Below, one piece after another: positions 3,034-63,757 of a stretch of DNA of 64,000 nucleotides. Under the pieces are notes generated by a model that did no database searches, was not told the origin of the DNA, and was given only the letters and a program-made list of their open reading frames with translations. Both the position numbers and the translations under genes were made by a program. Source of the DNA: Perkinsus chesapeaki (Eukaryota; Perkinsozoa; Perkinsida; Perkinsidae); contig JAAPAO010000119.1 in NCBI GenBank assembly GCA_013115145.1, positions 1-64,000 of the forward strand, in the 5' to 3' direction. Position 1 is the first letter of the stretch. Every line of letters begins with the position of its first letter.

Positions 3034-6000
3034 ATGATGACCACCGCCGAAAGCACATTTGCTCAAGTCGCCCAGCCAAACTGGGAGAAGGTCCCACCAA
3101 AGCAAGGCCTGTAAGTTGCATTTTCGAATAGGTTGAAATTAGCTAAATTGTGGTGCTTTGCAGATACGATCCGAATCTCGAGAAGGATTCCTGTGGAGTT
3201 GGTGTGATAATGGACATCAAAGGCGAACCGTGTCGGAAGATTATGGATGATGCTCGAGAGATGCTATGCCGTATGAGCCATAGAGGGGGGATAATGAGCG
3301 ATCCGAGAGATGGTGATGGTGCTGGAATTTTGATTGGTAAGGGAAGTTGGCTTCGTATTAGGGGAAAGTATATAGTTCGGGAGCAGCTGTGTTGAAAGTG
3401 AGAGATAATATATGGGGTCTTAGTATGAATACATGGTCAAGCTGTTATATAGGGGAATACAAGTGGGCGAATAAGAAGAAGTCCACATAGCTACTATGTG
3501 GGCTACATCGTCATTCGCGCTTTGCAATCATTCTCTTTGTAAATTAAGGTTTTCTAGCAGAGCCACGCATTTAAGTATCAATCTCTCCAACTTGGCAGAT
3601 TACGAGTTCCTAGCCAGCGCGTGCTCGCGTCTTCGCATTGGCTTTGAAGTCTACGTTGAAATATTCTTTCCAGGAATCCCCGATTCCTACTACCGGCAGC
3701 TCTCGCCGTCTTTCCTTCCCGATGGCTCGGTGCTCCCTCCTAGCGGAGAATACGGTATGGGCAATGTGTTCTTGCCACAGGAGGAAAATAGACGTTTGGA
3801 TTGTACAGCGGTAAGTTGGATTTGAAAAGTAAATTCTTAAATTTAATTACTGGAAGTTGTTATTATTAAAAGTCATTCAAAAAGAAACTAGTTTTTATTC
3901 GGAGGAAGGTGACGAATGTACTTTTTTATGATAGCCGAATGAACAAAGTCGATTATTGAGCAATATGATAATTTCAATCCTTCTTAAGCGCTTGAATTGA
4001 GGAAGACGAACAGATATGCCTGCTGGCTTTTCTTGTAGAGGCTCGCTCGGCTAGCTGAGCGTTTCGGTCTTCGTGTCCTGGGCTGGAGATGGCCCTTGGA
4101 AGTTCAAAGTGAAATACTTGGTCCCGCTTCGAAAGGATCTGAGCCGTTCATCGCACAGGTAAGCTGCAGGATAAAGCTTGTAGTCGTTCTAAGTGGCTTT
4201 CAAGGTGTTTGTTGGTCGTATCGATGCGAATGAAGTTGTTCGAGGTGAAGGCAGCGAGACAGACGGTCGGGTTATGACGGAGGTGAGTTGGTTATTAGTT
4301 CGAGTTTGCTACCTAAACGAACTTGCAAACACACTAATTCGTATTACAGTACTTCTTGTGATAATTTCATCAATAGGAGGAGGAGTAGTTTGATAACTCC
4401 ACTCCTCACCTTTATTCCCTGGACCATGGACTCGTGCCAATAGAGGAGGGTGGCGCCTTGTCCATTGGGCCAGCAGGACGGGTCATTTGCTACTCCATGT
4501 TCAGGAAGAGGACAAGTACCTGTCCTCGGCATCACGTGTTGGAGGCGTTAGTGCGATGAAAAGGAGCAAATTGAAGCCAAACTCCAACAGGACTGGCAAA
4601 CGCTATGAGGGTAGGCAGATTGCAGAACTCCTCTGATTCGATTTCCTTGTAGGCGAGAGGAGACCACCAAAGCCGTTTCGCACGCGAGGCGCGCTGAGCC
4701 CAGAAATCTGCCAGCAACTTCCGTTGGAGTACCTCCTTTACCTTTTGAGGAAGGCTGCTGGTTCGAGAGAGAAGACGGAAATGTTTATTTGTTCGTTGAG
4801 CTCCAAGACTGTTACTTATAAAGGTGAGCCTCAGGGGGATCGGTGGAAGCGTTAGTACTTTGGTTATTGTAACTGTTTGCTTTTCTTCAACTTGGCTGAT
4901 GCTACTAGAAGCATCTGATCGTATTTATAATTTTTAGTTGTCATGTCAGTATTATTATTTATTGTAGTTTCATTTTTCGTTGTTGTGCAAAAATTACTAT
5001 TCACTATTACGCAGTCGCAGTGAGTGTAACTTAGCTTTTCTTCATCCGGTTGTTCGTTTCAAAGAACGCTGGCTCCCCTATTCAGGTCAGTTAACTTGTG
5101 CCCAGCTCTTCGTATATTATACCGATTTGTCCGACCTGAACCTAACAACACACTTGGCCATGGTGCACTCCAGGTTCAGGTGAGAGCATACCGACGTTTA
5201 GTCGATCCATTCAGTAAATAGTAGGAATGTAGCCGTTTGCAAATGCTAAAAAATAAAGAAATCTCACAAAAACTCACGTCGATTGTCTACACTTTCCCGT
5301 CCACGGTGATCAAGGAGTGACGCCGAACTTGTCATTACCGCAGCAATTTTCAGAACCGACGGTATAGGAAACTCACTACACCTATTCCAGAACTTACTGG
5401 TAACCAAAATTTGTGCCATAAATCTTCCTAAGTCTTCCATTTGAGTATCTTAAACTCGAAAACAGTGCTTTCAAAATTTGCCGTAACTTCCCAGATAAGT
5501 AGCGTCGTCTTGTTGAAGATGTCCGCAGTGGCTCGGGAACTGTATAATGAGTTTTTCGACAGCTTTAACTCGGGGATTTGGTCTTAATAGTAATCGACAT
5601 ACGTATACATCTTCAAGGAATTGAGCGGTAAACTACTTTTCTTGGGGAAAAGCGATTGTCAATAAAGGCGCGTTTCAGAATCTAGACAACGCGTACATGT
5701 TATGTTGATTATTATTATTTATATAGCTGCGCCGGGGTACCTGCGTTTAACATCTCCTCCGTTTCAAAAGTTATTTCTTTCTCAGTACAAATACATTTCC
5801 GTCGTGGTCGAGAAGCCAACCGTTCCGTAGACTGTGCCACAACGGTGAGATTAATACCCTTAGTGGCAACAAACAGGCATTGAAGAGTCGCGAAGGAGGC
5901 CTCACTGGCCTTTTACAAGTGAGGACGCGACTTGGTGGAAATGTGGAAATTAACGTTGAAATTTTGGTTGAATTATTTTCTTAGTCATTTCAAGATCCGT

Positions 6001-8725
6001 TTATATTTCCTCGTGGATTTGCCCTTATTAGTTATACCGCAGTAGCTATTTTCATTATTATGTGAAGAGATGCGGCCTGTCGAGATTGTCCAACTGTTCA
6101 AATGGGAAATATTTCTTCAAAGCTGTTATTGCTTGCTACTGCGCACCAGTTGAACGCTCACAGCCCTCCACGACCTCTGCATTGATGTTGATTAGGCATC
6201 TTTAACATCTCTGTTATTGGATCGTCTTCGATCGCATTGGAGCATTTTCAGTATTGTGCTGGCCCACCACTGCTGGGGTTGGTCCATTATGATTCATTCT
6301 CTACCGTATTTGTCGGGTTGGATGTTTTGTCTTATATCAGCCGATCCTTCCGAGTGGTATGTCTGAGAGTCAAAAAAGCGTCATTCGCAGGATTCTCACG
6401 CCTGCTGATGAAGGTGAGCAGCTCTCTGTTTGATATAGTCTATGCATATTACCAATATACAATACCTTTATTACCATTATATTAGTAATACCAATATACC
6501 AATATATAATACCTTTATTACCATTATATTAGTTATACCAATATACCAATATATAATACCTTTATTACCATTATATTAGTAATACCAATATACCAATATA
6601 TAATACCTTTATTACCATTATATTAGTAATACCAATATACCAATATATGATGCCTCTATTACCATTGTATTACTACTACCACTATCATTATATATTAGGT
6701 ATCGGTTCTGACTCCGCAACTGTTGATAACCTTTTTGAGCAACTGAATATCATCTGTGGTTGGCCTTTACCAATGGCTATGATGCTGTTGGTTAGGGAGG
6801 CCTGGAGGGGCAATGTTACTATGGGTGATGACAAGAAGGCGATGTACAGGTAAGAAGAAGAAGCACCTCATTAAAGCTTTCTCTAATCATTATCGGTGAT
6901 GGGGAACTGTGCTATTGACGAATGTGTCACAGACTGACCTCCAGAGCATCCATTCCTTGTATCTGTATCTGAGTTGCCGTACAAATCGAAAAGAGGCAAA
7001 TCGTGTGCCGTCCACGCAAATTCGGTCAGAAATTTTGAATCGATTTTTTTCTCGAAAGGACGCACTTTGCCTTCGCAAATTATGGAAAGTATTTATTGCA
7101 CATTTCGAAGGATGGTTTTTTAGGTATCTCTCGTGCTTAAGTGAGCCTTGGGACGGCCCTGCAATGCTTGCCTTTACCGATGGCGATGTCCTTGGTGCCA
7201 CTCTTGACCGAAATGGGCTCAGACCGAGCAGGTGAGCATCCAGGATTCGGGAAAAGATCGGTATGATTGCATTTCATTACGGTGTTTATTTTACTTCAAG
7301 TGTTTATCGTGGAAGGAGAGATGTAGAATGGATTCTGCGAACAGCACACGCAGTCGCTTCAACGGTAACAGTGAAGTAGCATAGCGATCGTACAGTGTAG
7401 CAATCTATTAAGAAGTACATAGCAGTTGGGGCGTCAATTATTATCGTCGCTTATGCGTTTATCGAATATCTTCCACGGATTTGGGGAATTGATTACAGTT
7501 GTCATATAGTAACAGGGTGACTTGGCCTGAATTGATGAGGAGGATTGAAGCGGTCAGGTTTATGATCACCAAAGGTGGCTTGTTTGTATTGTCCTCTGAA
7601 GTTGGTGTTGTTGACGTTGATTCCTCGGATGTCCTGCAGAAGGGTCGTCTTGGTCCTGGAAGGATGATATTAGTGGATACTAAACAAGGTCAGTTGATCT
7701 CCACTGATTTCACAACGATTGCGATATTCACCTACCGATTATTCAGTCGGATAAAATTATATAGTCATCGAACTACCCTAATGAACGCCCTGTATGAAAA
7801 CTAATAGCATGTATCAATTCAGTCGATGCGATAACCTCGGTCTCTGTCGAGCAGTGAATTCTCAGGTTCGCAGTAGTTGCCTGAGGATTCTATTTCTGCA
7901 CAACTAATATTAGCTTTGAGATAATTGCTGATGTTCACTGAGGGTACACTCCTCGACACAGTCAAAGTCCATCTCCTAAAGGCGACTTTGGAATTTAATT
8001 GTTTTTTCGAGTTGAAATTTCTTAGTTGAGCTACACAAGCGAGCTTGCTCAGAGCTTTTCCAATTTTATATGATTCCAAAAATCCCATGGAAAATTCAAG
8101 ACCAGATATCGCCGATGTTTTCAGGGCGCGTGATTCTAGATGAGGAGATCAAAAAGACGTTGAGCGCTAGCGCACCTTTCGCCGACTTCCTCAAGCAAGC
8201 TGTTTTTATAGACGCCGAATCGACAAAGAAAGTGGCGCATGATGATAATATATTTTCGACCGAGAAGAACAAGGTGGGCTACTCGATGTGATCGATTGTA
8301 TAGGTGATGCTGTTTCAATGATACCAATCTACGGAATTATATCACTCATTTCCTTGCATTTATCGCCAGTGAGAATGACTTGTTTCTCGCAACTTTGACT
8401 AGAGCCGTCCTATTGCCACTAGGAAAACTAATTGTGTGCATCTTAAGAAATTTCACCCACCTTAATCGCATACACTTTCTAAACTACTTCCCGCTTACTA
8501 TATAGAATCTCTATTTTCCACTTTACTCCATCTTCGAATGTAAATTTCCGATCAGTCTTTTACTATAGTTTCGTACCGTCGTCCTCCAGGGTATTCCTAT
8601 CACGCTCGACGTACTGGATGTCCCAGAGGCTACGTTGACCGAACAGTTGGTGATGCACGGTTATTTTTCGGAGCTAGTTGATATGGTACTCAGCCCTATG
8701 GCGCGAGTGGCTCAGGAACCGCTGG
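3034..8725 (+). CDS. GLT1: GOGAT exons 1-14: glutamine amidotransferase (class II) domain
   Basis: Exons: 3034-3110, 3164-3336, 3674-3810, 4039-4158, 4205-4282, 4715-4823, 5086-5179, 5786-5918, 6341-6413, 6699-6849, 7124-7231, 7558-7688, 8125-8273, 8590-8725 (residues about 1-556). The motif DSCGVGVI places the nucleophile at Cys36; in this family the residues before it are removed so that Cys becomes N-terminal. Further signatures are [30 protein letters not shown] (family: [11 protein letters not shown]) and [14 protein letters not shown] followed by [13 protein letters not shown], the glutamine-binding region. Arg of the usual NTLRGN is replaced by Ser here. Intron 5 carries a decayed tRNA-Arg copy and intron 9 a 47-bp minisatellite. 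Confidence 0.93.
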
Positions 8726-11700
8726 GTAAGAAAGCCACAAGTGGGCCTTGTTGCAGAGGTTAATGGAATGAATAATGTGCAACTAGATTCAAGCAAGATT
8801 CTTCTGAATATCTACAATCTCGTAGTCGCTTCCTGCTAGAATGCCAAGTAGTGCTTACTTGGGATATGAGAGCCGCATGACGCTCTCCAGCAGGAGGGTT
8901 GACAGAAAATAAGAAATAAGTCCATCAGTAGTATCAACCTACTTGTTACTACCAAGTGTTACCAAGTGTGCCGTAGTTTAGTAATTCGCTGCATGATGGC
9001 ACTTCAGTTGTGGTAGACCAACGCCAGGCGGTCTCGGATAGAGTTCACACTATATGCTCCTAGTGTCGTAAGATATTTTTGCCAAGCTCTTCATGATCAC
9101 ACCTCGACATTAGAAATATCTCTTCATCTGTTTCCCAAAGTCTGAATCAGATTCTGCTTCCCGAGCACTACGTTGAATCTTCTTATCAGGTTCAATGGGT
9201 CATGATGCTCCACTGGCATGTCTGTCTCGCCTGCCTCTATCATCCTTCTACTACATGCAGCAACTATTCGCTGAAGCCACCAATCCAGCAATCGATCCTC
9301 TTCGAGAGTCGATCGTCATGAGCCTTGAATGCCCCATCGGGCCACAGCTAATAGGTTGCACTGAGGGTTGCGGGGTAGCGGATTTCGGTCGTCCCCATGC
9401 CATCGCGTGCGGCTCGGAGCCTGCCAGGAGGGTCGTCTTGGATGAGCCAATATTGTGCCCGTGGAGATACCAGCAATTGCTAGACTTGGAGGCCGACAAC
9501 GACTCTGGCATATTCCCGTTTAGCGTTGTTGATACTACATATAGGATCGAAGCTGCAAGAGACATTAAAAGGAGCGCAGGTGAGAATAGTTTCTCCCACT
9601 TAGAAAATCGGCTTTTTATCGATTTTTCGTGGACTTTTGCTATGAAGTATTCTACTAGGAGTTTTACGCGAGAAGTAGCGAGCACGTTTGTATTCGCTGA
9701 TTTGTAGTTAATATGTATAATTACTTATTTACTGTTAGTCTGCCATGGGGTTCGAACCTGTGCCATTTCTTCAGCCCTGCGAGATTTCTCTGGCGCCTGT
9801 GCCCTGGAGTCTCGACTTCACGACATCTGTGAGGAGGCGGAGGCTGCAGTGCGCGATGGAGCGGGCGTTCTTATCTTGTGCGATCGCCGTGCTGGTAAGA
9901 TGAATTAATTTGGTATATTCTTGTCCAGAACTTTGTCGACAAATTGGCCTGCTTGATGGTTGATAATCTGCTCCACTATCATAAGACCTTAACGGGGGAC
10001 TTGAAAAATGCAGTTCGACGCAATGAAATAGGATATTTTCCCGATCTCTAAGTCAGTATCGAGTGCTGGAAAGTGAAGTTTTAATTTCGAAATTCTCCTT
10101 CAAGTGATATACACGGGAAATACTAATTTCTGATCAGGTCCTAGTAGAGTCCCAGTCGATTCCCTCCTTGCAGTGGGAGCGGTGCACCACCACCTCATCA
10201 AGTGCAGGTTAAGGAGCCAAACTGCTATTATTGCCGAGGTGAAGACAAGGGCTCTTCCCCATTCGCCACAATAATGCTGCACGGGTGCCGATAGGGTATG
10301 CTATTATGTATGCATATACTTGATTGGTTGGCCGATAGTTATCGCCTAAAACAGGGCTTGCTAAGAGAATGCTGTTCAACTGTGTGAAACTCCACCAGCC
10401 GCCTCAACTCTGTTAAATGCATAGTTCGACGCCTACTAAGGATAGTCAGAATTCAGATCACAGCATCTTGCCTCTTATTTACCTTTTCCTCCAATGGGGC
10501 TTCCCAAGTAGTCATTCTGGTATGCAGTAGTCATCGTATATATAATACGCCATAAGTCCTTACCGCTGCTCCTCAGGTGGCCTCTGTGTCGTCCATCCAT
10601 CAGATGTGTTGTCTCCTTGGATTTGGTGCCGATGCCATTTACCCTTACCTCGCCTATGCGGCCCTGACAAAGTAAGAATATTACTCTCCCATCATCGATG
10701 AATGTGGTGTAGAGTACGACCGACCAACTCGGGAATTGGCAATGAGTCGGCGAGAACTGAGCTGAGCTTGAACAAGATGGTGAAGAACTATCGGGCAGCA
10801 ACTCATGCTGGGATACTCAAAGTGAGTGTCGATTGATTAGTTTATGATTTATAAAATAATTCAATTGATAATATATTAACTTCGAAAAGCTGACTTTATA
10901 TTGATCGATTCAGTGAGTCGTTGTAATTCGTTGAAAAGTCTTTTGGGGTAGCGATAATGTTGTGGTTTACGATGAGTAAGGAGCACTAAGAGGAAACTCC
11001 CGAATATACCCTACCCGGGGATCGAACCCGGAATCTCCACCTTAGGAGGGTGGCGCCTTATCCATTAGGCCACCAGGGCGCGTGATCATTGCCTCGGGGG
11101 TTTTCCCCGTATTTCGACAGCTCAAGATACTCAGGTCATGTCCAAGATGGGTATATCCTGCCTATCCAGCTATAAAGGAGCTCAGCTCTTCCAATGCATC
11201 GGCCTCGCCGCCGGAGTCAAAAGCCTGTGTTTCGTCGATTGCATGTCCTCGCTCGGCGGAGTTGGCTTCAGATCGCTTCAAGAGGATGCATTGAGGCTCC
11301 ACACCAACGTACCAGACAGAATCGCTCGCCCTGGTTATCGATTTCGTCTTCTACTTAGGCATATCCTTCCCGACCTTTACCGCCGTTGGTTGACACCGAA
11401 ACGAGTCGAGCGGTGTTACCGGAGATGGGGCTTTATCACTTCCGTTCGGTTGGCAACAATTCGGAGCTGCACATGAACGCTCCGGATGTCATTGCCAAGA
11501 TACAGGTGATTTATTTAATGTCCTCGCCGGGGTTCGAACCTGGGTGTCTTCAGGAATCGGCTCGGAAGGATTCGCCGGCAGCTTACAAGGAGTACGAGGA
11601 ATGGGAGAATGCCTTGGTTGATGAATGCGAGCTTCGAGGGTTACTTGAGATTTGTTACGATAAATGCACACCGATTGCTATAGAGAAGGTCGAAACTGAA

Positions 11701-14700
11701 TCAGATATAGTTAAGCGATTCTGTACAGGTAAGCTCTAGTAGACTCTAGTGGACTAATTTACTTAGTGGAAATTAGAGCATTTCCCAAATCGGTAACGAA
11801 CTTCACTTTCCCACTAACGATGGTAAACGATGGATAACAATATCCACTCTTTAAATTTCCAAATAATATTCGAGTTTTGGGATCGCTTCTGTACAGTCGT
11901 TGCTTTAATCAGTAGTCCAGAGGTTCGTTAAATGACGACATTCCGGTTTTTTTAACCTGTGAAATGAAGGCGGTGCTTTGGCTTCTTAGACCTGCTTCAC
12001 TGAATAGATTCCTTCACAAAAATATTGTGTTGAGAGAATTCGAAAAAACGTAATAAGTTGACAATTCGGGAGAGTTTCTCGAAGTCTCCGGCAAATTTGG
12101 GCGCTCTCTGGTCTCTGAGGGATTTCACCTTGCCGTTAGGCGCGGTGTCCTTCGGTGCTATTTCCGCGCCAACTCACGAGGCACTCGCGGAGGCGATGAA
12201 CTCTCTTGGCGGTCGATCTAATACCGGAGAAGGTGGCGAGGATGAATCAAGGTAAATCGATAGGGTCGACGCGGTAGTTTCACGCGCCACGAAATTGCTT
12301 GGTTTCCAATCATACAGGGTATCAAGAGGTAACTTGTGTACTTGATGGGTACATTGTCAGAGAACGCTCGCTGTGAATGGTCGGAGCATACATATTTAAG
12401 ATAATGCTATCCTCAACCTCTACAGTTAACCAAATACGCAGTCACGTCATTATTATCATTTTTCCATAGTTGAAGTGCACTTTGGAATTTTCTCGACTCC
12501 TTTTGGTTGGAACGAAAAAGTTTTTGGGAATTTATTGGCACTATGTGATTTCGTAAGTGATGAAGAATGTCCTCTTCGGCAAATTAAAGTTTTGTTGGCA
12601 ATTGTAATATTCTTCTTTTCTACCTTTGCTCGATGATCTCTATTTTTATTCTATCTTTTCTTCACTGTCTTTTCTCTATACCTCTACTTCTCCACTATAC
12701 TCTATATCTCCCCGTTAAGTTACCCAAGAGCTAGTGGTTCTTTACACTAGCTCTTTACATCTTTACTCTGCTCCTTTATTACCAGCCTTCCTCAATCCTT
12801 CGTTTCTCATACGGCAAATCACTCAGGAGCTTCCAAACGCCTTGTTGGTCGCCGAAATTTTCGCCTCCTTTAAGAGAAACTCAATCTCCTTTGTCACTTT
12901 CAGATTTGGTCAAGACAGCGATACACGTTCTCGTATCAAGCAAGTGGCATCTGGTCGTTTCGGTGTAACTGCGGCATACTTGGCCGACGCCGATGAGATT
13001 CAGATCAAGCTCGCTCAGGTGAGTTCCTTTCGAACCATAATTCTCAACCCTGTTAAGGTTTACGGTTCGAAACACTTTTAAGTTAACAGTTGCCCTTGTG
13101 GTACATTTCACAACAATCGATTTCTCTTATCCGAAAGCTATGATCACACTGTTCCCACAGTGATTTGTTAAATACTCTATTTCTATCGACACCACTGTGT
13201 GCTTGTGTCTGCTGCACGCAGACGTCCAGTGTATTATTTATTGTAGGGAGCTAAGCCAGGCGAAGGTGGTGAATTGCCCGGATACAAAGTCGTTGGTGCC
13301 ATTGCTGAGATAAGGAAATCTACTCCCGGCGTTGGTTTAATATCTCCACCGCCTCACCACGATATGTATAGTATAGAAGATGTAGCGCAGTTGATATCGG
13401 ATTTGAAACATGTAGGTGGGGCTTGGAAAAATACCCTACCCGGGGATCGAACCCGGAATCTCCACCTTAGGAGGGTGGCGCCTTATCCATTGGGCCAGCA
13501 GGGCTGATGTGATTCTGTCAGACCAACCCGAGTGCCAGGATATCTCTCAAGCTGGTATCCAAGATTGGTGTGGGCATCATCGCTGCTGGCTTGGTGAAGG
13601 GAGGAGCAGGTCATGTCGTCATTTCCGGAAACAGCGGAGGTGAGTCGTCCGTAAGACCTGTTCTCACAGTACATCCAGGAACCGGTGCGGCGAAGTGGAC
13701 CAGTATCAAGCACGCTGGTGGACCATGGGAGCTAGGGATTGCCGAATCACATCAAGTAAGGACAGTCTTCACTTGAACGTTTTGTTAAACTGTATTATCT
13801 GTACTGGAGGACCGTTAGTTGGCACCAACACAACAAGTTGTATGTTCTTATATTATATCTGAGTTATCACATATTGTTGGATACTCATTTAGCACGGTCC
13901 TGATTAGAGCACAAAAACACATAGGAGTTTGTTTCCCACAAAAATAGTGCAAGCAGCTTTAATGCATAGGTTAAAACTGACCATTTGACTGAGGATCTTT
14001 TGGGGGATAGTGCTCATAATATCCGTTAATCAATCCTGTAACAGTTACGATAATCTAACTCGGAGTTAGATTATCCCTTCTATGTGTAACTCCCTATAGG
14101 TTTTAATCCTCTGTAGCCTAAAGCCTCCTGTAAATTTCCATTGGTAATATCAAGCTTCAATCTTCCCCAGCTGATTCACGTATACATTAATCATATAGCA
14201 CTCTTTGAACGTTATGTTTCTGCTGCTTCACTGTCAGGTGCTGGTATTGAACGGTCTCCGTGATAGAGTGACACTGCAAGCTGATGGGCAAATTAGAACT
14301 GCCCGAGACGTTGTTTATGCTGGATTACTGGGGAGTGATGAGATTGCTATGACCACAGTAAGTGAGGCCGGAGGAAGCCTTTGGAAAAATAATCAATTAA
14401 ATTAGAAAATGTCGGTATGAGCTCAGGTGCCCATGATCGCGCTCGGTTGTGTGATGATGCGGAAATGTCATCTCAATACCTGTCCAGTCGGAATAGCCAC
14501 TCAAGATCCGGAGCTGGTGAAGAAGTTCGCTGGACAGCCGGAGGACTTGGTCAACTTCCTTTGGTTGATGGCGGGTGAAGTCCGCAGGATTATGGCCAAG
14601 CTTGGGATAAAGCGCTTCCAGGTGAGCACCGTGCTTGATGGAAATGAAGATCTGTCAACACAATTGATCTACGAGGAATTTAGAAATGACACATCGAAGT

Positions 14701-52582: not shown

Positions 52583-52712
52583 CCAGAAAGAATTCACTAC
52601 AAATCAAAAACTGTCAAAAGTCAACGATAATCTGGAATCTCACTAACAAAAAACTAATCACAATACGAAGAAAATAATGGGTTTGCTGCAACTGAGCATA
52701 CAAGTGGGAAGC

Positions 52713-53291
52713 TTATAACGCGAGACACGAAACTGTGCGACAAATAACTACTACAAATATTAACGTAATCGAACTAGTGCTGTAGGCACTCCCTCTATGC
52801 GGTGGAGGCGGACCGGGAGGACTTGGTGCCGGGGGGCGACTGGAAGTAGGGGGCACAGTGGGATAGACGCACTCTACCGAGACCCATCCGGGAGGCTGCT
52901 GCCCAGGTGAGTACAATTTCGGATCAAACTGTGTCAACAGGCTACAATTACAAGTCAGATTAGACAACGGGTAGCATACTCTACCAGCCGGGTACTGCCA
53001 ATCCTTGCAGAAAGCACCTTGAGTAGATGTATTCAAATCTTTAGCTTGATCAACACAATAGTTATTCCAACATGGTACCAAATCGTCGGGGGAGGGAAAA
53101 ATACACTGCGGCTTTTTAGACGTTCCTATCCATCGTGAGTCAACACAGAAAGTGCCAGGACAGTAGTTCCGAGGGGCACCAGTAGTAGTGGTCGGCGGAA
53201 CAGTACTGGTACTAGTGGGCGTCGTAGTGTTGTTCTGAGCCCTGCTGACCCCAAGCACTAGGAGACCAAGCCACAAGCGAACAACTAGCAT
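52713..53291 (-). CDS. Cysteine-rich mucin-like surface protein, type B copy 1
   Basis: 192 aa from ATG 53291 (MLVVRLWLGLLVLGVSRAQ, signal peptide); the longer frame to 53351 opens with TTG only. A Thr/Pro linker is followed by the type-B pattern: NYCPGTFCVDSRW, PQCIFPSPDDLVPCWNNYC, AFCKDWQYPAGRVCY, LTCNCS and ECVYP. A Pro-rich stretch and a hydrophobic tail (TLIFVVVICRTVSCLAL) suggest membrane or GPI attachment. Over about 210 nt it is almost identical to type B copy 2 (54530-54740), so the duplication or a conversion is recent. Potential N-glycosylation sites (NNT, NTS, NLT) are visible. Confidence 0.8.
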   Translation of the reverse strand: MLVVRLWLGLLVLGVSRAQNNTTTPTSTSTVPPTTTTGAPRNYCPGTFCVDSRWIGTSKKPQCIFPSPDDLVPCWNNYCVDQAKDLNTSTQGAFCKDWQYPAGRVCYPLSNLTCNCSLLTQFDPKLYSPGQQPPGWVSVECVYPTVPPTSSRPPAPSPPGPPPPHRGSAYSTSSITLIFVVVICRTVSCLAL

Positions 53292-53467
53292 AAAAATAAT
53301 AACTCTCAAAAAAATTACCGGTAGTGACTTCAACAAATTGATGAAACACAAAACGCATATCAGTGAGACGTAGCCGATACGCCAATAAGACGATTTACAC
53401 TTCTACCAGCAAAAAGGAAAAGGTGATCAAAGTGATGAAGTTCACTAAGACCAATAATATGCCGTTT

Positions 53468-54166
53468 TCAGCATAAGAATAACCCAATAGCCATGGATAA
53501 AACCAAGTACACAACTTCAGGGACTTTAGCATATGGGGCATCAGAGGCAGGTCCGAGCGTAGTGCCGCTACCACCAGTCGTCGTGGGTCCCGTTGGCCCA
53601 CTAGTAGTAGGCGACTCAGTGGTGGTGGGTTCCGGTGGTGGAGGGTAGCTGCAGGGGTCAGCCACAGACCAACCATCTCTAGGAGACAAAGAGAACGGTG
53701 TCGAGTTGAAACTATCACAATGACAACTCAGCTTGATGTCGTGAAAGCATATGCGACCTTTAGGATCCTGCCAATCTTTGCAATAGGTTCCCTGTCCACG
53801 GCCCTGAGCGTTGGTGGGGTGAATACCGCGGCGATTGGCGTCAGCAGTACAAAAGTCATTCCAACATTTACGTAGATCTTTCGGTGATGGTGTGATGCAA
53901 GGGCCACCCTTGAACCATTGGTCATCTAGACACCAACCGATCGGGCAGTACTTGGTAACCGCCGAAGCCGATGTCGTGGTGCTAGTAGTACTAGTGGTGG
54001 TGGTAGTGGTTGGGGTGGTAGCACTGGTAGTTACTGTACTGGTAGGCTCAGTAGTACTGTTCTGAGGAACAGTGGTCGAATTACGCGGCGGAGGGGACGT
54101 CTCAGTGGTGGTCTCCTGTGCAAGGACAAGAGACACGACGAATGCAGCAAAGCAACGTGACAGCAT
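53468..54166 (-). CDS. Cysteine-rich mucin-like surface protein, type A copy 2
   Basis: 232 aa: signal peptide (MLSRCFAAFVVSLVLAQ), a long Thr/Ser/Pro mucin-like linker (about 55 residues, likely heavily O-glycosylated), then the type-A cysteine domain: KYCPIGWCLDDQW, KCWNDFC, TYCKDWQDPKGRICF, SCHCDSF and DPCSYPPPP. A second Thr/Pro region and a hydrophobic C-terminus (VVYLVLSMAIGLFLC) fit a GPI signal. The linker is much longer than in copy 1, so linker length evolves fast while the domain is conserved. A cttgtag site lies 17 nt before the ATG. Confidence 0.85.
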   Translation of the reverse strand: MLSRCFAAFVVSLVLAQETTTETSPPPRNSTTVPQNSTTEPTSTVTTSATTPTTTTTTSTTSTTTSASAVTKYCPIGWCLDDQWFKGGPCITPSPKDLRKCWNDFCTADANRRGIHPTNAQGRGQGTYCKDWQDPKGRICFHDIKLSCHCDSFNSTPFSLSPRDGWSVADPCSYPPPPEPTTTESPTTSGPTGPTTTGGSGTTLGPASDAPYAKVPEVVYLVLSMAIGLFLC

Positions 54167-54256
54167 TGAGTGACCGAATCAACTACAAGAAAAATGGACA
54201 ATGTTCAAAACACAACAAAGATCAAACTTTAATCGCAAGAAACCTGCACGGAGGCT

Positions 54257-54865
54257 CTAGAGAAATGGTAACCAGGCCAATACGGCCAAGACATGCGGAA
54301 TCAGTGCGCAATAGCCGAGAAGACTCTGAGCGTCACTTGAGGGAGTCGTAGGACCGGCGGAAGTCGGCCCTGGACCGGGAGGACGGGTAGGTGTAGTGGT
54401 CGAGGGAGCTGCCGTGGTGGTAGGGGGTAGAGTGGGATAGACACAGTCAACCGATACCCAACCAGAAGGCTGCTGCCCAGGTGAAAACACCTTCGGATCA
54501 AAGTGCCTCAACGAGCTACAATTACAAGTCAGATTAGACAACGGGTAGCATACTCTACCAGCCGGGTCCTGCCAATCCTTGCAGAAAGCACCTTGAGTAG
54601 ATGTATTCAAATCTTTAGCTTGATCAACACAATAGTTATTCCAACATGGTACCAAATCGTCAGGGGAGGGAAAAATACACTGCGGCTTTTTAGACGTTCC
54701 TATCCAGCGTGAGTCAACACAGAAAGTGTCAGGACAGTAGTTCCGAGGGGCACCAGTTGTAGTGGTCGACGAAATAGTTGTAGACGTGTTAGTAGGACCA
54801 GCTGTAGTAGTCACATTCTGACTTGATCCACCGTGGAGGAATACCAACGCAAGAAGAGCGCGCAT
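54257..54865 (-). CDS. Cysteine-rich mucin-like surface protein, type B copy 2
   Basis: 202 aa from ATG 54865 (MRALLALVFLHGGSSQ, signal peptide); the longer frame to 55006 would place this hydrophobic segment internally and is rejected. A Thr/Ser linker, then the type-B domain (NYCPDTFCVDSRW, CWNNYCVDQAKDL, FCKDWQDPAGRVCY, LTCNCSS, VDCVYP), a Pro/Thr region and a hydrophobic tail (LGYCALIPHVLAVLAWLPFL) suited to a GPI signal. It is the most upstream member of the - strand cluster, giving the order B-A-B-A in transcription direction. Confidence 0.82.
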   Translation of the reverse strand: MRALLALVFLHGGSSQNVTTTAGPTNTSTTISSTTTTGAPRNYCPDTFCVDSRWIGTSKKPQCIFPSPDDLVPCWNNYCVDQAKDLNTSTQGAFCKDWQDPAGRVCYPLSNLTCNCSSLRHFDPKVFSPGQQPSGWVSVDCVYPTLPPTTTAAPSTTTPTRPPGPGPTSAGPTTPSSDAQSLLGYCALIPHVLAVLAWLPFL

Positions 54866-55006
54866 TTTCACTGAACGGAGACATGACCGAGTTGAAACTG
54901 TTGGATATCGATTAGAATGGCGCGCGAGATTTTCATCGCGTGCGTGCAAGATCTCCATGGGCCCTATGCTCGCGGGACTCCTACTGGTGGTGTTATAATA
55001 TGACAT

Positions 55007-55768
55007 GCGCTTTGTCTGAATGCAGAGGGAACTGCGATCGTTTTCTTAGACTTGGTAGCCATCCGCCAGCAATTTGCCGCAGTGTGACTCGGCGGCAGTT
55101 TCAGTCGGTCACCGAATACTCTTCGGCAGCTTCTCGATAGGTCGGACGCCTGCGCGAGGCCCTGGACGCTCGAGACTCAAGCCAAATATCTTTGCGGGCT
55201 GGAGTCGAAATATCGTCTGAAACCGAGTCTTTCACTAGCCAACTGAATGATGACACGGTGCTGTTGTACCGTAATTGGCTGCAATTGTGTAATCTGTCCC
55301 CTCTTAGTAGAACCAAAGTGACGAGAAAGTTGTAGAAACTGTTAAACTTGCATGAAAAATATAGATCAACTCTCTCGCCACGGCAGCCATGATAGCCAAG
55401 GGGCTCCTCCAACCCTCTTCACTTTATCATTGCACTCGGATGACGCGAAATGGAAAACCGGCACCACTTGTTGAGGCTTGCACGCAGTACGACCTGACAT
55501 ACAAACAAATGCTCAGGGACACTTCCCAACGACAAGAGGACCTCAAAGTTCTACCGGCCATTCGTGCGGTGATGACTAGATAAGCGAATTTAAGGAAGAT
55601 TAACAGATGCCCCAGCATTAGGGAACATGCTACGGCACAATTCCGTCTCGAAATATGTCCTCTATACTCAACAGCACGGGTGGCCTGAGACGGGGCTGAG
55701 ATGGGATTTAATTTTAAGCACCTAAAGCATTGAAGAGTTCAAATCCGTCGTAAAAGACTTAGTGCATC
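55007..55768. other. Intergenic; possible small + strand ORF
   Basis: ATG at 55389 opens 64 codons (MIAKGLLQPSS…LPAIRAVMTR) to 55583 with reasonable composition but no family I recognise. The right end holds one arm of the inverted repeat 55679-55789. Confidence 0.35.
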
Positions 55769-55789
55769 TCAGCCCCGTCTCTGGCCACC
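55679..55789. repeat. Long inverted repeat (25-bp arms, one mismatch)
   Basis: ggtggcctgagacggggctg plus agatg (55679-55703) is matched by its reverse complement at 55765-55789, with one mismatch and a 61-nt spacer. The right arm overlaps the predicted last exon of the RING gene. Confidence 0.85.
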
Positions 55790-56341
55790 TGTGACAGATG
55801 TTTCATAGTTGTGACTTACACAGAGGGCATCCGCCTCGAGACCCTCCCATCGCCGGCGAGTTTTCCTCCAACCATTCGAGAACACATCGCCAGCAAAACA
55901 GATGCCCACACACCAGTGCAGCAGGCGACTTCATCTGTGAATAGCAAATCTGAAGGAAATGAACAGTGATAGGATCTGACGAGAAGGTCTCAGAGGCCAT
56001 GATGTGTTAGGCAATCGAGGGCACTGACCAAAATGGTGGCCTCGGATCGTCGTGAGGAAGCGGCTTCTAATAGCTCAGATACGAGTCACCCCAAAATCGG
56101 ACTCATCTTCATACGTACATTTTGTTACAGAAAAGTGGTAAACAGTGATAGGGTTTGACACCGAAGTCTCTCGGGAAAAGCTTTTAAATCTCGCACAGAT
56201 TTCTCATCTCACTTCATCATATTTTTAATAGTACGCCCCGTAGACTCACCAGACATGTCAGCTGCTGATACCCCAGATTCATCTCAATCGTATCAACTGC
56301 ACCGCCTTGCTCCGTGCCGTTTGACCAAGAATATCTTCGCG
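55769..56341 (-). CDS. RING-finger protein (probable E3 ubiquitin ligase), 5' end missing
   Basis: Exons on the - strand: 56250-56341, 55820-55949 and probably 55769-55788 after a 31-nt intron. Joining exons one and two in phase 0 creates the first zinc ligand pair: LTCLICYSQMKSPAALVCGH, followed by LFCWRCVLEWLE and GGCPLC. This is a C3HC4 RING (C-x2-C, C-x-H-x2-C-x2-C, C-x2-C) with the CGHLFCWRC core typical of RNF5/RNF185 and PEX10 ligases. The protein ends right after the last cysteine (CGQRRG). Upstream exons were not placed. A hydrophobic segment at about 57037-57120 (ASLAPLIYKLQLAGFYAGLR) could belong to this gene and would favour a PEX10-like membrane ligase, but that link is a guess. 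Confidence 0.7.
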
Positions 56342-56870: not shown

Positions 56871-56900
56871 AGGCACAGGTTCAAATCCCAAGGGTGGTAT
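56871..56900 (+). repeat. tRNA T-arm fragment
   Basis: ggcacaggttcaaatcccaa has a GGTTCAAATCC T-loop core on the + strand. The stem is partly mispaired. It could lie in an intron of the - strand gene, but no exons were placed nearby. Confidence 0.5.
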
Positions 56901-57374
56901 TAATCTTCAATTTTAGTGATCTCAATCAACGTGTTTCGCTAAGAAAATAGTCGGCGACATTGAAGCCGCTGGAGAAGAAATTTCCGGAAATTTCCAGAAA
57001 TTTTCGAAATTTTTCGAAATTTTCGCGACTGCCCACCTCATCTGTGAGATATCGATTCCGAAGACCCGCATAAAAGCCAGCCAACTGCAACTTGTAAATT
57101 AAAGGAGCCAATGATGCTACAAAACCTGACAAAGAGAAGAATGCGAAAGCTTCACGCGCCACGAAATTCGTACCAGTCAGCTCCCCGACTTTAGTTGATC
57201 TCACTCTGGAATATGCCCCAGAGAACAGGAAGTCAAAGAACGACTGAGCGTTTTTGGGGCGCGCAAGAAAAAATGGTAATAAAATCTAAGACGAAACTCG
57301 CCATGAAGCGATGCGCGAGCTGCCTTACTCTCAGTATCAACTCCTGAATCCTTTCCTTCGGGCCCAGGGGAGAT

Positions 57375-57394
57375 AATCGATCACGCGATCGATT
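57375..57394. repeat. AATCGAT palindrome
   Basis: aatcgatcacgcgatcgatt: eight-base arms are exact reverse complements around acgc. It differs by one base from the perfect palindrome in GOGAT intron 30 (15170-15189). Confidence 0.85.
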
Positions 57395-57707: not shown

Positions 57708-57805
57708 CTCGTATGCGGATCGTCGGCGACCCAAGCTCATGAGTCTAGCTCACAGGATGAGCTAACTCAACTGGGGTGACTCGGGAATCACGATCCGCAT
57801 ACGAG
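57708..57805. repeat. 16-bp perfect inverted repeat with 66-nt structured spacer
   Basis: ctcgtatgcggatcgt (57708-57723) and its exact reverse complement (57790-57805). The spacer contains a further complementary pair (agctcat / atgagct), so a branched hairpin of about 98 nt is possible. Confidence 0.85.
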
Positions 57806-60785
57806 CCATGATCGAACTTACTCTTCCCCCAATGTGTATCCATGCCTCACTATCGCCGAGAGACGGACGATAATCGAACAAACCAACCAAATAACTGCTG
57901 GAGAGTATTCTCTGTATTGAACCTGGAAATAATTCTGTGGCGCGCAGGAAAATATGATCTCACTAGAAATACTCTGCTAGAGCAAACAGAAACCTTGAAC
58001 CTTCTGTTTCCCGCGCTCTCAATGACGAGGGAGAGATACGATGAAAATATGTCTTCTGATCAGAATGCGTTCCGTCTGTGCCGAGCATCACCGTTGGGCA
58101 AGTTGATTAAATTGGATATTTCGCGTTGAAGTGATCAAGATAAGCTAAAATGTTTATCTACCCTATACAACTAACCTGTCTCCTAGATCCCACTCGGACA
58201 ATAACTCTCCTTTTCGGCATACTTCTCTGCACCAACGATACCAATCGACCAGAAGCGACTTGCTCATTCTGAAAAAAGATGTTCTACCAGATACTGTCAG
58301 CATTTCCCAGACAAACACTTGTAGAACCAGAAGCAATGAAGTATAATATCCGGTATCTTATCTCTCAATCAGTGCTGAGTATTGTAGTAAAAATATTATA
58401 AAGTTAAAGTATAAAGTTACTATAGTTACTTTTACTATAGTTAAAGTATATAGTATAAAGTTTTGTATATTGTTAGCTACACAAAGAGTGTTAACTCTGG
58501 AGACTAACGGAACGCCTAAACAATACTCGACAATGTCAAGGAGATTGCGCGATTGATTTCCAATCAACCTCCAAGTGATATGTTCAACATCGATGTAATA
58601 CTATTATATGATCCTGACCTATCGCCCACGACTGCCACCTAGATATCCGACTCAGCTGGTGCCCGGTAACCCTTCATCAGATTTCGAATGAGACTTCCTG
58701 CCCAACCTTCAAGTGTTCAATAGTGAAATTTCGAGCATACTTTAGTCGATAGTAACCCTTTAACAGCAGTGACAGTCTACCACTACTGGAATCACTTATT
58801 CATGATGAAGATAACTCTCTTCATCTCCCTGTACAAGTAGAACCCATCTACCTCCGAAAAATGATATTCCCGAACCAGCGAAAGTCCGTCAGATACTTAG
58901 GCGAAATTATTATAAGCAATCGAATCCCAGTCGATCGTCAACACCAAGTTCCGAATTGGGTGCATGAACCGCGAGCCATACATCCCGCGCTCAAGGTTAC
59001 CGATTTGGCGAGTAAAGAAGTCGCTTTAGTGGATAGGACATCAATTTCATGAAGAGGGATTACTACTAGGCCGCGCTCTTGACGCACAAGTGTTTGGAGA
59101 GTTATTTGATTCCGCTCATCGTAATTCAGCCATCAGCTGCACGGTAGAGTCTGTACTTATATGCGCTGTGGTATAGTGCGCAGTTTGGATAGCATTTCAG
59201 CCATTTGCCTGTAACCACCGCGAGAGCGATTACTAATCCTAGAGAAGAACTGGTCCGAGGAGACGCCCAGCTCGTGTCACACTTCAAACTGCATAAATCA
59301 CACACACTGCGCAGCATGACCGTAGGAAGTTGCGTTCTTCCAGAATTCAGGAGCTAGTGAGATGGACTCTAAGACCAATGAGATCTAATTGCAATTTAAT
59401 ACAAAGAATTATATTAATTATAAATCTTCCCCCCAATGATCTTCCTGTTAATGGTTCAATGGCGAGAAAGATTCCTTAAAGGTGAACAACAGAATTCACT
59501 TCGGAAAATTTCCCGTGTCAAATAATCAATTTCCCAATCGCACCTTCATATCCTCCAACAGAACCAATGACCGAGTCTGCTTTGGCAAATCGATGCTCAT
59601 TAGAAACAGGCGGGAGATACGAAAAATAAATAACTGTTGCAAAATATTCTCTTTTAGTAGACTATTTCTGTCTGAAAAGTCTAGCAAGCAAAGCGCGACA
59701 AACGTGCAGGAGGAAGCCAGATTGTGTGCGCGAATTTGTTATTGTGGTTATATAACTCAACACTGGCCCTGATGAAGTATTAATATAAACAGTAATAGTG
59801 ATTGAGCTAGAGAGGAGACAGCGCGCACAACATTATTTGTGTGCATATTTCATCACAGTTCTGCAACTTTCCGAATTTCATTTATCTTTCGCCGTAGATC
59901 GGCTTGAGATGTAGTATACGTATTTTCACTAGGGTGACTCTATGAGATATCGATCAACCGTTTCATTATTATATTTGGCACACTGCCATTTCAGCATGCG
60001 ATTTGGTTATGCAGCTGTCACAGTGGACGAACATCAAAACACTAAGTCCCGAAGGAACGCCTTTTACGCTGCTCTGTGATCTACGAACATATTTTCGATA
60101 AAAATTTTTGTTGTATCTCCTCCGCATTCGGAACACTTTTGTGTGGCTAGATGACTCATTCCGTCTCTGCTGGGAGAGCTCCTGGGTTTGACAGTAGCTC
60201 TTTTGAACACCCGGATTGTTCAAGCGTTGGTCTCGCACACCGGGAAGAATCTTTTTACTAGTCATGGTAAGATACCGACTAACTCAACTCGACTGCGCAT
60301 TAGAAATATTTTGATCACATTTCAGAATCGCGCTGACAATTACGTGAAAATAAAAATACACTTTCTGGTAGAGTTGATAAATAGCGTAAATCGATCAATA
60401 AGCTAGAACGTATCTAAAATCTTCCGAGTGCGCTCCTCACCGGAAAGATACTCAATTCTTTCCCGAAACCATTTCGTATATTATTGCACTTAAACTGATC
60501 GGGTAAAGTAGTAGCGAACAGATCAGCATCACCGCGCTGGCATACCTGAGAAAAACGAAAAAATTAAAACAAACAAAATAGCATTTTCAGTGTTGGTATT
60601 TTAGAAATAGAAATTCAATCACTCGGAATCATAAGGTGGAAATAAAATTACAAAAAAATGGAAAAATTATGGAGTAAATGAAAAAACTAAGATGAAAAAA
60701 TCAACGGGGTGTTTGCTATTAATGGAGAAGTACTTCAATTATGCATTCGAGCGCCAAAAAGATGAACTCAAATATACATTAAAAA

Positions 60786-60812
60786 TGCCTCTACCAGGGA
60801 TAGAACCTGGGT
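60786..60812 (-). repeat. tRNA T-arm fragment in the permease region
   Basis: On the - strand, the same sense as the permease, GACCCAGGTTCTATCCCTGG forms a good T-stem (CCAGG/CCTGG). Confidence 0.65.
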
Positions 60813-61007
60813 CTCCTCGGCAATTTTATGAAAAGTAAGTGGTTTTCCCGCCACTAGCACGCATAATATTTCATTGAGCCCGTTCGGCCGAGCGACTATT
60901 TGGGAAAAATTTCTGTATTTTTTCACCTGAAATTCGGCAAATTTCGCAAATCTTACCAAAAAAACCGATAGCAAATAACCAGCGTTAAGCAATTTAAAAT
61001 TAAAATA

Positions 61008-61040
61008 CTCCACCAGGAATTGAACCCACGCCCTTTGGCT
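61008..61040 (-). repeat. tRNA 3'-half fragment just inside a permease intron
   Basis: On the - strand, GGGCGTGGGTTCAATTCCTG begins a few nt after the donor at 61046. It has the T-loop core GGTTCAATTCC. Unlike most examples it sits near the 5' splice site. Confidence 0.65.
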
Positions 61041-61046
61041 GCTCAC

Positions 61047-63757
61047 CATCTTTTCCAACCAGCCACAGTATGCCTTCCCGAGTGAAATATTTTACAGTAG
61101 AGATAACTGGGCATTACGAAACAGAGCAAGTTGCCGCAGATTAGCCCGACCAATTCGAAGACCGTTCCCAAGGAGGAGACAATGAAAGACAAGAACACCA
61201 CACAAACCAGCATAACTGTCGTAGTGATAAATCTGAAAATACGAAAACCTTCTGCCCGGAAAAAGATTTTCCAAAAATTTTAACGAAGAATGCATCTCGG
61301 TAAAAAGAAAACGGAAAAAGCGAAAAGACATTTTGGATAAAATGTCGGCTGAAAAAATCGGAACTGAGAATGAGATGTGCGAATAAGATGTTCCAGACTC
61401 CTTAGCTTCTTACACCTGCAGCATGAACGTTGTCCACCTCATAATTTTTGCTGCCGAAGGTCACCGAAAGCTTATCAGTGCCCATGGTGGAGGGTAGTAT
61501 ATTTTCCGATTTGCATCTCTGCTGAATGACAGAGTCCCATGTCCGGGGCGCGGAAGTAATAACAATAATAGTCAACGGAACGATATTAAGGAATGCGTGA
61601 GGTGGCGTTCTCTGTAGAAATTGGAATTGGAATTTATGTCAACAGGCCACACAAATTAAAAACATACAAGAAAAATACCATCACCAGGGCTCGAACCCGC
61701 GACCTCTCGATTCCCACCTCAGTCTCCATTCAGCTCGATCACAAGTCGGCGGCTTTCCACGATAAATCAATAGTTCAACACTTCTTCGACTAGGATGGAT
61801 GGTCAGAGGTAGCGAGAAGCTGACCTAAAAAATATCTTTTGCGGCACAAAATTATCCTCCTACTCACCGATAGCGCCGCGGCAATGCACGCAACTTTAAC
61901 CGGAGTTTCACTCACCGGCATCGACGTCAAGAAATTTGCTGAAAAAAACGACGTAAAAAGCGCGCGCCCAGTTGATCGATTTCCTTACCTCCCACACTCT
62001 GGCCGTATGTCATATAAGGCAGAATCATCGTTGGAATAAAAACCACCAGACCGGTCGTAACCGCCGACACACTGACGAAATTCAATTTTTTCAGAGTCAC
62101 GTTTGGCATCTCCTCGGCCACTTGAAAAAAGTTGTGATGGCACAGAAAAGCGAACATAAATACAGGGAATCTTGCGAGCATTCCAACCCACGAAACCGGC
62201 CAAAGCGAGGCCGATTCTAGGGAAGGGTCGGCGTAGGCTACTGCCAGGATGGCGAGATAACCAAGGGAGATCAAACCAAATGCATTGGTGAATCTGAAAA
62301 GGGAGAAGTTTAGTGTGCATGAAACGGTTGATCGATTAGCATATTTTCCCTCGCTGTGCGTTCTACTACTACACTGCAAAATTTTAGGGTCGTCTCCTCA
62401 ATAGCGGACGAGAGGTCATTAAAAACGAAATATTCTATTTCATTGGCGAGGGCCGTAGTAATAGAGTTTAGGGCTCTTCACAGACAGACAGAAAATCTGT
62501 CACGCATTTTTCACGGCGGAAAACTGTGCAGAAAATAACGCCCTGAGAGGGCGCCGCAAGCGACCTTGGATCTCGATTTGTTTCTAGTCGAAATTTTTTT
62601 TCGAATTTTACGGTAAGACAGACCGCACCGAAGTTACGGAATTAAAGATTCGGACGTGAAACTATTTTCCACCGATTCGGGAAAGTTGGACCGAAACTTA
62701 CGTGGGGTTGAAATTCCGACCTTCACAGGAAATTACGAGAAATTTTCACAATTTTTTCCGTGCAGAGAAATTACGAGAAGTATGGAAAAATTGCTACCCA
62801 CTGGGAACGAAAAATGGAAAAAGGGAAAATTTCACAAAAAAATCACAGAAAAATTAAAGTAAAAGTTATGTTTTGTGTGATGCTGGTTCAGTAGTACTGT
62901 GACTTTTTCTGATCTAGAGTTTAAACTCACTCCGTAAATTTCAACCAGGAAAAATTTACGGAAAATTTCCGGAAAATTTTCGAAAATTTTCGAAAATTTC
63001 CCTACCTTGTTGTGTTGAGGCGATGTGCATAAAGGACTGGCGAGAGCAAAATAACCACCACCAGAATGAGAATCTTTTTGAGCGTTTCAGGGTCAGTCCC
63101 AGTCGGATAAATCTCCTCGAGAATCGCCGCGAAAAGCGTGCCGGCAATCAATAGGAAACCTACAGAGGCTCCGAGACCTTTGATGACGACAGATAAGTCA
63201 ACCAACCTGAAAAAATAGATGGGAAATTACGCAAAAAATATCTGAAAAATATTGGAAAACATACGCAAAAAAATATGCAGAAAAATCAAGGCAATCTTAG
63301 GAAAGCAAATTACGTGGAGATATTAAGGAAAACTCATATCAGAATTATGCAAAAAAACGAGGGAAAGATACAGACAGGATGAAAAAAGAACTTACGATTT
63401 TGGAAATCATTATCGAGGTCGAGAACCTTCCAACAAAACCATTTGAAGAACTGTATCATCTTGAGGGGTCATTTTCAAGACGAAAAATACACTTCGACAT
63501 TTTTAGGAAAAATAAAGCAACTTTCAGGGATTTCATTGCAAAATAATTGTAAAACTCACGATCGTGTGAATCAGCTAACAGGAGCCATCATTCGACCTAC
63601 CAACGTATCTTGGGGTTAACCAAGCTCACGACGTTAAAAAAAGATAGCATCCCATATGTTTGGGAGTCGTAGCTCTGAGCAATGAACGACATTAAATACA
63701 AAGAAAACCAACTTGCCACGCCAGCGAAGATACAAAATAATACGGCGAAGATAACAC
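61047..63757 (-). CDS. AAAP/SLC38-type amino-acid permease, multi-exon, partial
   Basis: Multi-pass transporter of the amino acid/auxin permease family. Exons recognised on the - strand: 63630-63757 (VIFAVLFCIFAGVASWFSLY), 63006-63206 (VVIKGLGASVGFLLIAGTLF, LKKILILVVVILLSPVLYAH), 61989-62293 (FGLISLGYLAILAVAYADP, FPVFMFAFLCHHNFFQVAEE, TGLVVFIPTMILPYMTYGQ), 61868-61938 (ANFLTSMPVSETPVKVACIA) and 61047-61232 (VCVVFLSFIVSSLGTVFELV, GLICGNLLCFVMPSYLY). The FxFxCHxNxF motif in the third exon and the C-terminal LVGxxxGxxLCFVxPxxxY motif are family hallmarks. Phases agree for 63006-63206 to 61989-62293 to 61868-61938. A conserved-looking segment at about 61411-61475 may be a further exon. First and last exons are missing. 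Introns here are A-rich and carry tRNA fragments. Confidence 0.75.
61683..61712 (-). repeat. tRNA T-arm fragment in a permease intron
   Basis: On the - strand, GTCGCGGGTTCGAGCCCTGG contains the perfect T-loop core GGTTCGAGCC. It lies between permease exons 61868-61938 and 61047-61232. Confidence 0.65.

Follow-up and report, generated by a model that had tools for sequence, protein, structure and literature searches.

Why do tRNA-like pieces recur inside the introns of protein-coding genes? The question is raised by a 64,000-nt stretch of Perkinsus chesapeaki DNA (contig JAAPAO010000119.1 of assembly GCA_013115145.1; "the window," whose numbering we use throughout). The window contains a GOGAT gene, whose predicted protein has its best match in P. 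marinus (82% over 76% of the query), and a putative permease region, marked by one Pfam match (Aa_trans, 61927-62397). The initial annotation reported at least 15 tRNA-like pieces, placed them in introns of at least three genes, and offered three explanations: a family of tRNA-derived short interspersed nuclear elements (SINEs) whose 3' ends persist, introner-like creation of introns from inserted sequence, or recruitment of the T-arm sequence as a splicing signal. The introner-like explanation fits best, and two motifs unlike tRNA also recur in short introns. Our answer, to which we give slightly less than an even chance, is that several families of very short dispersed sequences gave rise to minimal spliceosomal introns and that the commonest family we found resembles the 3' part of a tRNA.

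The recurrence of the tRNA-like core is real, both in the window and in the genome. The B box, GGTTCRANYCC, has 10 exact matches in the window, where 0.41 are expected. Across the whole assembly (35.4 Mb in 884 contigs, to which all genome-wide counts refer) it has 2155, compared with 285 for the reversed pattern; the total includes tRNA genes, at least 62 of them above the cutoff, and overstates the number of places because GGTTCGAACCC is almost a palindrome, so that one place may count once on each strand. The initial annotation had proposed a test of core density and of bias toward splice sites. This test was run in part, and on the density side the core lies far above the shuffled and reversed controls. 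A T-run follows at a fixed distance: GGTTCRANYCC-N10-ATTTT occurs exactly 419 times (control, 0) and 1260 times with at most one mismatch (control, 10). The 419 exact matches among 2155 B-box sites are the unbiased share with a T-run; in the 76-site and 98-site sets used below, the frequency is inflated because loci L062-L141 were selected for having ATTTT. The consensus strings for the A and B boxes are general background or those of the initial annotation. We also trained a 38-column weight matrix on 68 sites outside the window. In the window it found 14 matches at a cutoff of 12 bits and 12 at 18 bits, compared with 0.42 and 0.05 in a shuffled window; two tRNA-Arg genes are among the matches. 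We too count 15 tRNA-like pieces: 10 exact cores, 3 near-cores (at 25025 and 60807 on the minus strand and 27686 on the plus strand), 1 degenerate whole tRNA, and 1 5' half. Among these 15, two are the tRNA-Arg genes, both intact.

Most of the sampled sites that are not tRNA genes contain a directional module that reads like tRNA positions 46 to 73, approximately, plus a T-run. Some introns of 42 to 60 nt consist of almost nothing else, in both orientations, and two of these are supported by protein alignments. First, a 48-nt GOGAT intron at 11506-11553 carries the module in antisense and is recovered by spliced alignments to E. coli GltB and P. marinus GOGAT. Second, a 44-nt GOGAT intron at 23407-23450 carries it in sense and is recovered by a spliced alignment to Vitrella GOGAT. 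The claims that tRNA-like pieces lie inside GOGAT introns and that they occur in both orientations are thus borne out. Many pieces were also said to lie within 20 nt of the 3' splice site; some B boxes do (13 nt for the one at 11540 on the minus strand; 16 or 25 nt, depending on the alignment, for the one at 9758, also on the minus strand), but not all.

To this we can add predicted introns, from a caller that uses only coding flanks and splice signals. The caller joined some introns wrongly, and its false positives at a score of 8 amount to 7 of 500 random sites. At that score, introns of 60 nt or less were called at 18 of 98 family sites (126 non-tRNA sites minus the 28 without a T-run) versus 7 of 400 random window sites. 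In a set of 142 non-tRNA sites, which leaves out sites near locus ends as well as L163-L186, L101, L108, and L123 and retains L081, the count was 19 (13 sense and 6 antisense), versus 7 of 500 random sites (P = 2e-8). Random window sites and GOGAT introns were likewise used for the part of the proposed test that was run. Among the 29 called introns with a score of at least 6 and a length of at most 75 nt, 19 are 42-50 nt long. In 13 of the 19 sense introns called, which represent only some of the sites, the ends of the element coincide with splice sites, as in introners: GT precedes the B box by 10-19 nt and AG follows it by 17-25 nt. Sharing of sequence among introns, another mark of introners, is found at the level of the module only, among introns that are mostly predicted.

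Two more motifs, both unlike tRNA, show the same association. Motif II (AGCGCKCGCCC-NNNT-RATCGAT) occurs 226 times in the genome in the form searched and motif III (YCRCGCGCCACRAAATT) 277 times, versus 0 for either control. The window has motif II at 11324, 24131, and 61962 and motif III at 12280, 20671, and 57152 (all on the plus strand); both are found in short introns, motif II in both orientations. The P. marinus alignment places motifs II and III in GOGAT introns of 50, 43, and 44 nt. At a score of 4, the caller found introns at 8 of 28 motif III sites versus 34 of 500 random sites (P = 0.0008). We also noticed that a motif III-like sequence adjoins a B-box module at one locus (L194) and a motif II-like sequence at another (L180), as if the motifs could be stacked.

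To consider the three motifs together, we merged the GOGAT introns from 7.5 to 24.3 kb into one list of 38, leaving out 15206-15253 and 18073-18098 because these look wrong in the P. marinus alignment. Twelve of the introns are 60 nt or shorter and account for 4.6% of the intron bases, but they hold 5 of the 7 motif sites (I-III; P = 4e-6), tRNA-bearing sites not being among the 7. For the B box alone, 2 of 3 sites are in short introns (P = 0.006). If the two disputed motif II introns are counted as long, 3 of the 7 motif sites remain in short introns (P = 0.002).

Whichever way the module faces, the best explanation for an intron that barely exceeds it in length is that the arrival of the module created the intron. 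The module would have been inserted into coding sequence and would have been an intron from birth, because an intron that was already there, once it had received the module, would be longer than minimal. In the sense orientation, GTRNG at or just before the variable-loop part would become the 5' splice site, and the T-run with an AG, either directly or a few bases on, would become the 3' splice site. In the antisense orientation, GT with the A-run complementary to the T-run would provide the 5' splice site; the 3' splice site would come from the complement of AGGTC, which is rich in pyrimidines, with an AG. The ancestor may have been a tRNA-like transcript or gene end of the RNA polymerase III (Pol III) type, and the B box would stay intact if the spreading lineages, or the copies in place, need TFIIIC. 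A more specific proposal is possible but doubtful: that a micro-element of 31-46 bp resembling a tRNA 3' end is a ready-made intron in either orientation and, with at least two other families, supplied hundreds of the smallest introns.

Alternatively, the T-arm sequence might serve in splicing itself, for example as a branch site. Its core, TTCGA, is almost a palindrome, and in 14 of the 19 called sense introns a distance of 17-25 nt separates the end of the B box from that of the intron. But a signal of this kind does not account for a directional module of 31-46 nt in both orientations, and in the P. marinus alignment the exact core is present in only 1 of the 12 GOGAT introns of 60 nt or less. 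Because the same directional module is found both ways around in alignment-supported introns, we disfavor this explanation and consider it very improbable.

How far does the likeness between copies extend? In an alignment of 76 non-tRNA sites (87 sites minus 11 tRNAs identified by ARAGORN), information is confined to about -9 to +25 around the B box. The order is G46, C48, the B box, YRS, four free positions, GGC, A73, and the T-run; nothing is conserved upstream of about -15 or past the T-run. This bears on the idea that the modules belong to tRNA-derived SINE families with a real body, as their 3' ends. Two families of dispersed repeats do have a shared body and carry the module. Family A (L081) is about 400 nt long and occurs at 16 places, 12 of which reach the module in its middle; family B (L108) occurs at 8 places, 7 of which reach the module, and has a fixed 3' end and varying 5' ends. 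In the L108 copy of family B, the likeness begins at the B box. But the 76 sites share nothing outside the module, and in an all-against-all BLAST comparison of the sampled loci, the only pairs of module sites related over at least 60 nt, beyond tRNA genes and L141, were those of L081 and L108. A head with both A and B boxes, joined to a shared body, was not seen either (an A box is present at 4 of 55 sites). A SINE family with persisting 3' ends is thus unsupported for most of the sampled sites. We rejected a single SINE family as the source, given the lack of shared flanks in the 76 sites and only two related pairs, and an origin from several such families seems quite improbable.

The tRNA-like features themselves suggest another alternative, namely 5'-truncated retrocopies or relics of many real tRNAs that were dropped into introns and are decaying. 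This would account for the match to universal tRNA positions, for the excess of 3' parts over 5' parts, and for a T-run that mimics the end of a Pol III transcript. In a subclass with CGAAAGGT upstream (71 in the genome versus 0), the likeness extends in 27 sites to Y32-T33 and A37-A38 and then ends, so that the module sequence reads as tRNA positions 32-73 plus a terminator. (A tRNA-Asn-like parent for this subclass was considered: 14 places match with at most one mismatch, but 8 of them have the TGTTAACC loop with a different stem, so no parent is demonstrated.) A minority of the sites probably are tRNA relics, judging from three kinds of likeness. Over the 16 bases of the 3' part, 5 of 55 sites agree with one of the available tRNAs at 14 or more positions, versus about 0.4 in column shuffles, and two of these, L065 and L096, agree at 15; a full A box lies upstream of 4 of the 55 sites, versus 0 of 55 in either control; and L141 shows 80% likeness to tRNA-Ser genes over 61 nt. 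The window also has two intact tRNA-Arg(CCT) genes, which lie in antisense within GOGAT introns 313 and 110 nt long, a 5' half of a tRNA-Arg-like sequence (4444-4486), and the degenerate whole tRNA at 16460-16531, which scores 22.1 bits against the Rfam tRNA family, under the gathering score of 29. When 20 loci were compared with Rfam, no family was found at E of 1 or less.

However, the family as a whole lacks the paired T-stem and acceptor of a tRNA gene or pseudogene, even if single sites, such as L141, are tRNA-like. With G-U pairs allowed, the T-stem positions of the 98 sites pair in 43, 64, and 32 cases versus 47.9, 63.3, and 41.5 when shuffled, which is no pairing signal. Watson-Crick pairs in the 142 sites number 41, 77, and 45 versus 45.9, 63.5, and 50.0; pair 50-64 exceeds the shuffles chiefly in the 38 sites without a T-run (20 versus 10.7), which favors relics, but the 104 sites with a T-run pair no better than shuffled ones (29, 57, and 29 versus 34, 55, and 38). 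We found no partner for the acceptor within 150 nt upstream or 120 nt downstream, which also argues against permuted genes. Over 27 positions, the closeness to 17 distinct tRNA ends is 19.3 versus 19.0 for shuffled sites (standard deviation, 0.13), in a tRNA set from which many isotypes are absent. The 10 bases that follow the B box vary greatly, though not at random: 20 pairs of sites are alike in at least 9 of them, versus 4.3 in shuffles. Matrix scores in the window are almost never intermediate. Orphan B boxes number 39 versus 1.6 in shuffles, and orphan A boxes 5 versus 0.9, in a sample that was partly fetched for B boxes; the window alone has 8 and 2. Since orphan B boxes outnumber orphan A boxes, random erosion of whole tRNAs is not the explanation. 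"tRNA-derived" is only partly right: the sequence resembles a tRNA 3' end, but the stems are unpaired and most sites have no parent among the available tRNAs. We rejected decaying tRNA pseudogenes as the main source, although a few sites do fit, and we consider retrocopies or relics of many tRNAs improbable as a general explanation.

Several observations weigh against the module-born introns that we favor. The splicing of most module introns is predicted from sequence, and the caller found introns at only the 19 of 142 sites given above, the others being in longer introns or in unclassified DNA. For motif II the caller gives weak evidence (4 of 24 sites versus 23 of 500 random sites at a score of 6 and a length of at most 60 nt; P = 0.03), and its call for the intron with motif II at 11309 (L187) was wrong. 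The stretch common to the copies is only 31-46 nt, and in the 34 columns outside the core the most similar pair is alike in 24, compared with a mean of 23 and a maximum of 26 in shuffles. Neither near-identical copies along most of an intron nor a recent burst of copies was found with the two elements searched, L118 and 11470-11590; these have no second match in the genome and are therefore not fresh copies. A search for target-site duplications in the 29 called introns gave none that is convincing (mean longest junction repeat, 3.76 versus 3.57; standard deviation, 0.15). Finally, an introner-like origin alone does not explain why the B box persists: either the spreading lineages need it, or TFIIIC binds the copies in place.

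Binding could also be the whole story. The module may be a DNA-bound site, above all for TFIIIC as at extra-TFIIIC (ETC/COC) loci, that is kept by selection, with motifs II and III as the sites of other factors and a gene-dense genome placing them in introns. When sites were chosen by their flanks only (score 6), those with 0, 1, 2, and 3 mismatches in the B box numbered 35, 11, 2, and 0, versus 0, 0, 0, and 0.9 in shuffles; this set still has tRNAs and copies from the repeat families, and good flanks may select young copies. The occurrence of the module in both orientations and the lack of second matches for the two copies searched are also consistent with binding sites. Among 12 family A copies, divergence is 3.8% in the B box versus 8-11% around it (ATTTT part, 0/53), but this is a weak sign because 52 of 260 windows of 11 bases are conserved as well as the B box. 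A TFIIIC site is not known to require G70-G71-C72-A73, a T-run placed at a constant distance, or Y32-T33. These features, including the 419 versus 0 exact matches, would be left unexplained, as would whole introns of about 42-50 nt that consist of the site. We regard binding sites as the main rival explanation, although an unlikely one.

Table 1. tRNA-like sequences, modules, and motif-bearing introns in the window
Positions	Strand	Feature	Evidence or context
4444-4486	-	5' half of tRNA-Arg-like sequence, no T-arm	GOGAT region; 86% to 11044-11086; orphan A box
9748-9758	-	B box in GOGAT intron, near 3' end	Intron 3' end at 9774 or 9783 (two alignments)
11007-11079	-	Intact tRNA-Arg(CCT) gene	In GOGAT intron 10822-11134; P. 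marinus alignment
11309-11358	+	50-nt GOGAT intron, motif II	P. marinus alignment; E. coli alignment gives 11334-11410
11506-11553	+	48-nt GOGAT intron, antisense module	B box 11530-11540 on minus strand; E. coli GltB and P. marinus GOGAT
13432-13504	-	Intact tRNA-Arg(CCT) gene	Fills most of 110-nt GOGAT intron 13412-13521; P. marinus alignment
16460-16531	-	Degenerate whole tRNA-like sequence	3' end of GOGAT intron 15965-16538; Rfam tRNA, 22.1 bits
20665-20708	+	44-nt GOGAT intron, motif III	E. coli and P. marinus alignments, caller
23407-23450	+	44-nt GOGAT intron, sense module	B box 23419-23429 on plus strand; Vitrella GOGAT
24122-24164	+	43-nt GOGAT intron, motif II	P. marinus alignment; E. 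coli and Vitrella put 3' end at 24194
25000-25025	-	Module, degenerate	20.2 bits in matrix scan
27686-27711	+	Module, one B-box mismatch, ATTTT intact	Matrix scan
38180-38228	+	49-nt predicted intron, antisense module	B box 38197-38207 on minus strand; sequence-only caller, score 7.2
38416-38492	+	77-nt likely intron, antisense tRNA-like module	B box 38433-38443 on minus strand; splice-like ends by eye
56878-56903	+	Module	Exact core, matrix scan
60782-60807	-	Module, one B-box mismatch	Matrix scan; apparently shares putative permease intron with 61001-61026
61001-61026	-	Module	Exact core, matrix scan; just inside 5' end of putative permease intron, GTGAG from 61046
61672-61697	-	Sense module in putative permease intron	Exact core, matrix scan; intron read by eye
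61939-61988	-	50-nt putative permease intron, antisense motif II	Caller score 7.1

The window has other features besides these. Three tandem single-exon open reading frames at 42924-47518 share 78-86% DNA identity over 300 nt; the one that was searched has its best match (46%) in a folate gamma-glutamyl hydrolase of P. chesapeaki. Tandem open reading frames at 52049-55045 on the minus strand encode small Cys-containing proteins with T/S-rich ends, and Pfam gave no match for two of them. There are tandem AT-rich arrays at 6403-6731 (47-nt units, inside the GOGAT region) and 28406-28659 (20-nt units), and a long hairpin at 55672-55796 whose 29-nt arms are 93% complementary.

How new introns originate is an open question, and this genome offers three sequence classes, including a tRNA-like one, that form minimal introns. 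Because these classes can be recognized by simple patterns, intron gain is directly testable by comparing Perkinsus species and strains. If the micro-element proposal is correct, then sequences much shorter than any known transposon would be able to give birth to minimal introns. If the sites are instead bound by TFIIIC or other factors, then introns would be docking places on a large scale, which would be equally unexpected.

How does this compare with known systems? tRNA-derived SINEs contain a B box of tRNA origin, and our module likewise contains a tRNA-like B box; unlike these SINEs, it has no shared body, 51 of 55 sites lack a full A box, and the T-run directly follows position 73. Extra TFIIIC (ETC/COC) sites have a conserved B box outside tRNA genes, but here the B box also has flanks that resemble tRNA and a T-run whose distance is fixed, and entire introns are built from the module. 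Within Perkinsus, the introns of P. marinus are given as 39-1622 bp long, most of them under 100 bp (PMC3101222). A search of one library for Perkinsus introners, short introns, SINEs or retroposons, and tRNA-derived introns gave nothing that matches by title and the start of the abstract, supplements being outside its scope. The nimtRNAs are tRNA-like sequences in introns of the human genome that are homologues of mitochondrial tRNAs (PMC7722341); in contrast, we find 3' parts that fill minimal introns. There is also a likeness to introners, as described in a report on Amoebophrya (PMC7789003) and in a survey (PMC9860276): many introns share sequence, and splice sites lie at or near the ends of the repeated element. 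In the survey's main text, neither "Perkinsus" nor "tRNA" occurs. The introners of Amoebophrya have inverted and direct repeats (PMC7789003), whereas here the junctions have no clear direct repeats and the two copies searched have no second match. Also unlike those introners, the part shared in P. chesapeaki is just 31-46 nt long, resembles the end of a tRNA, and occurs in either orientation.

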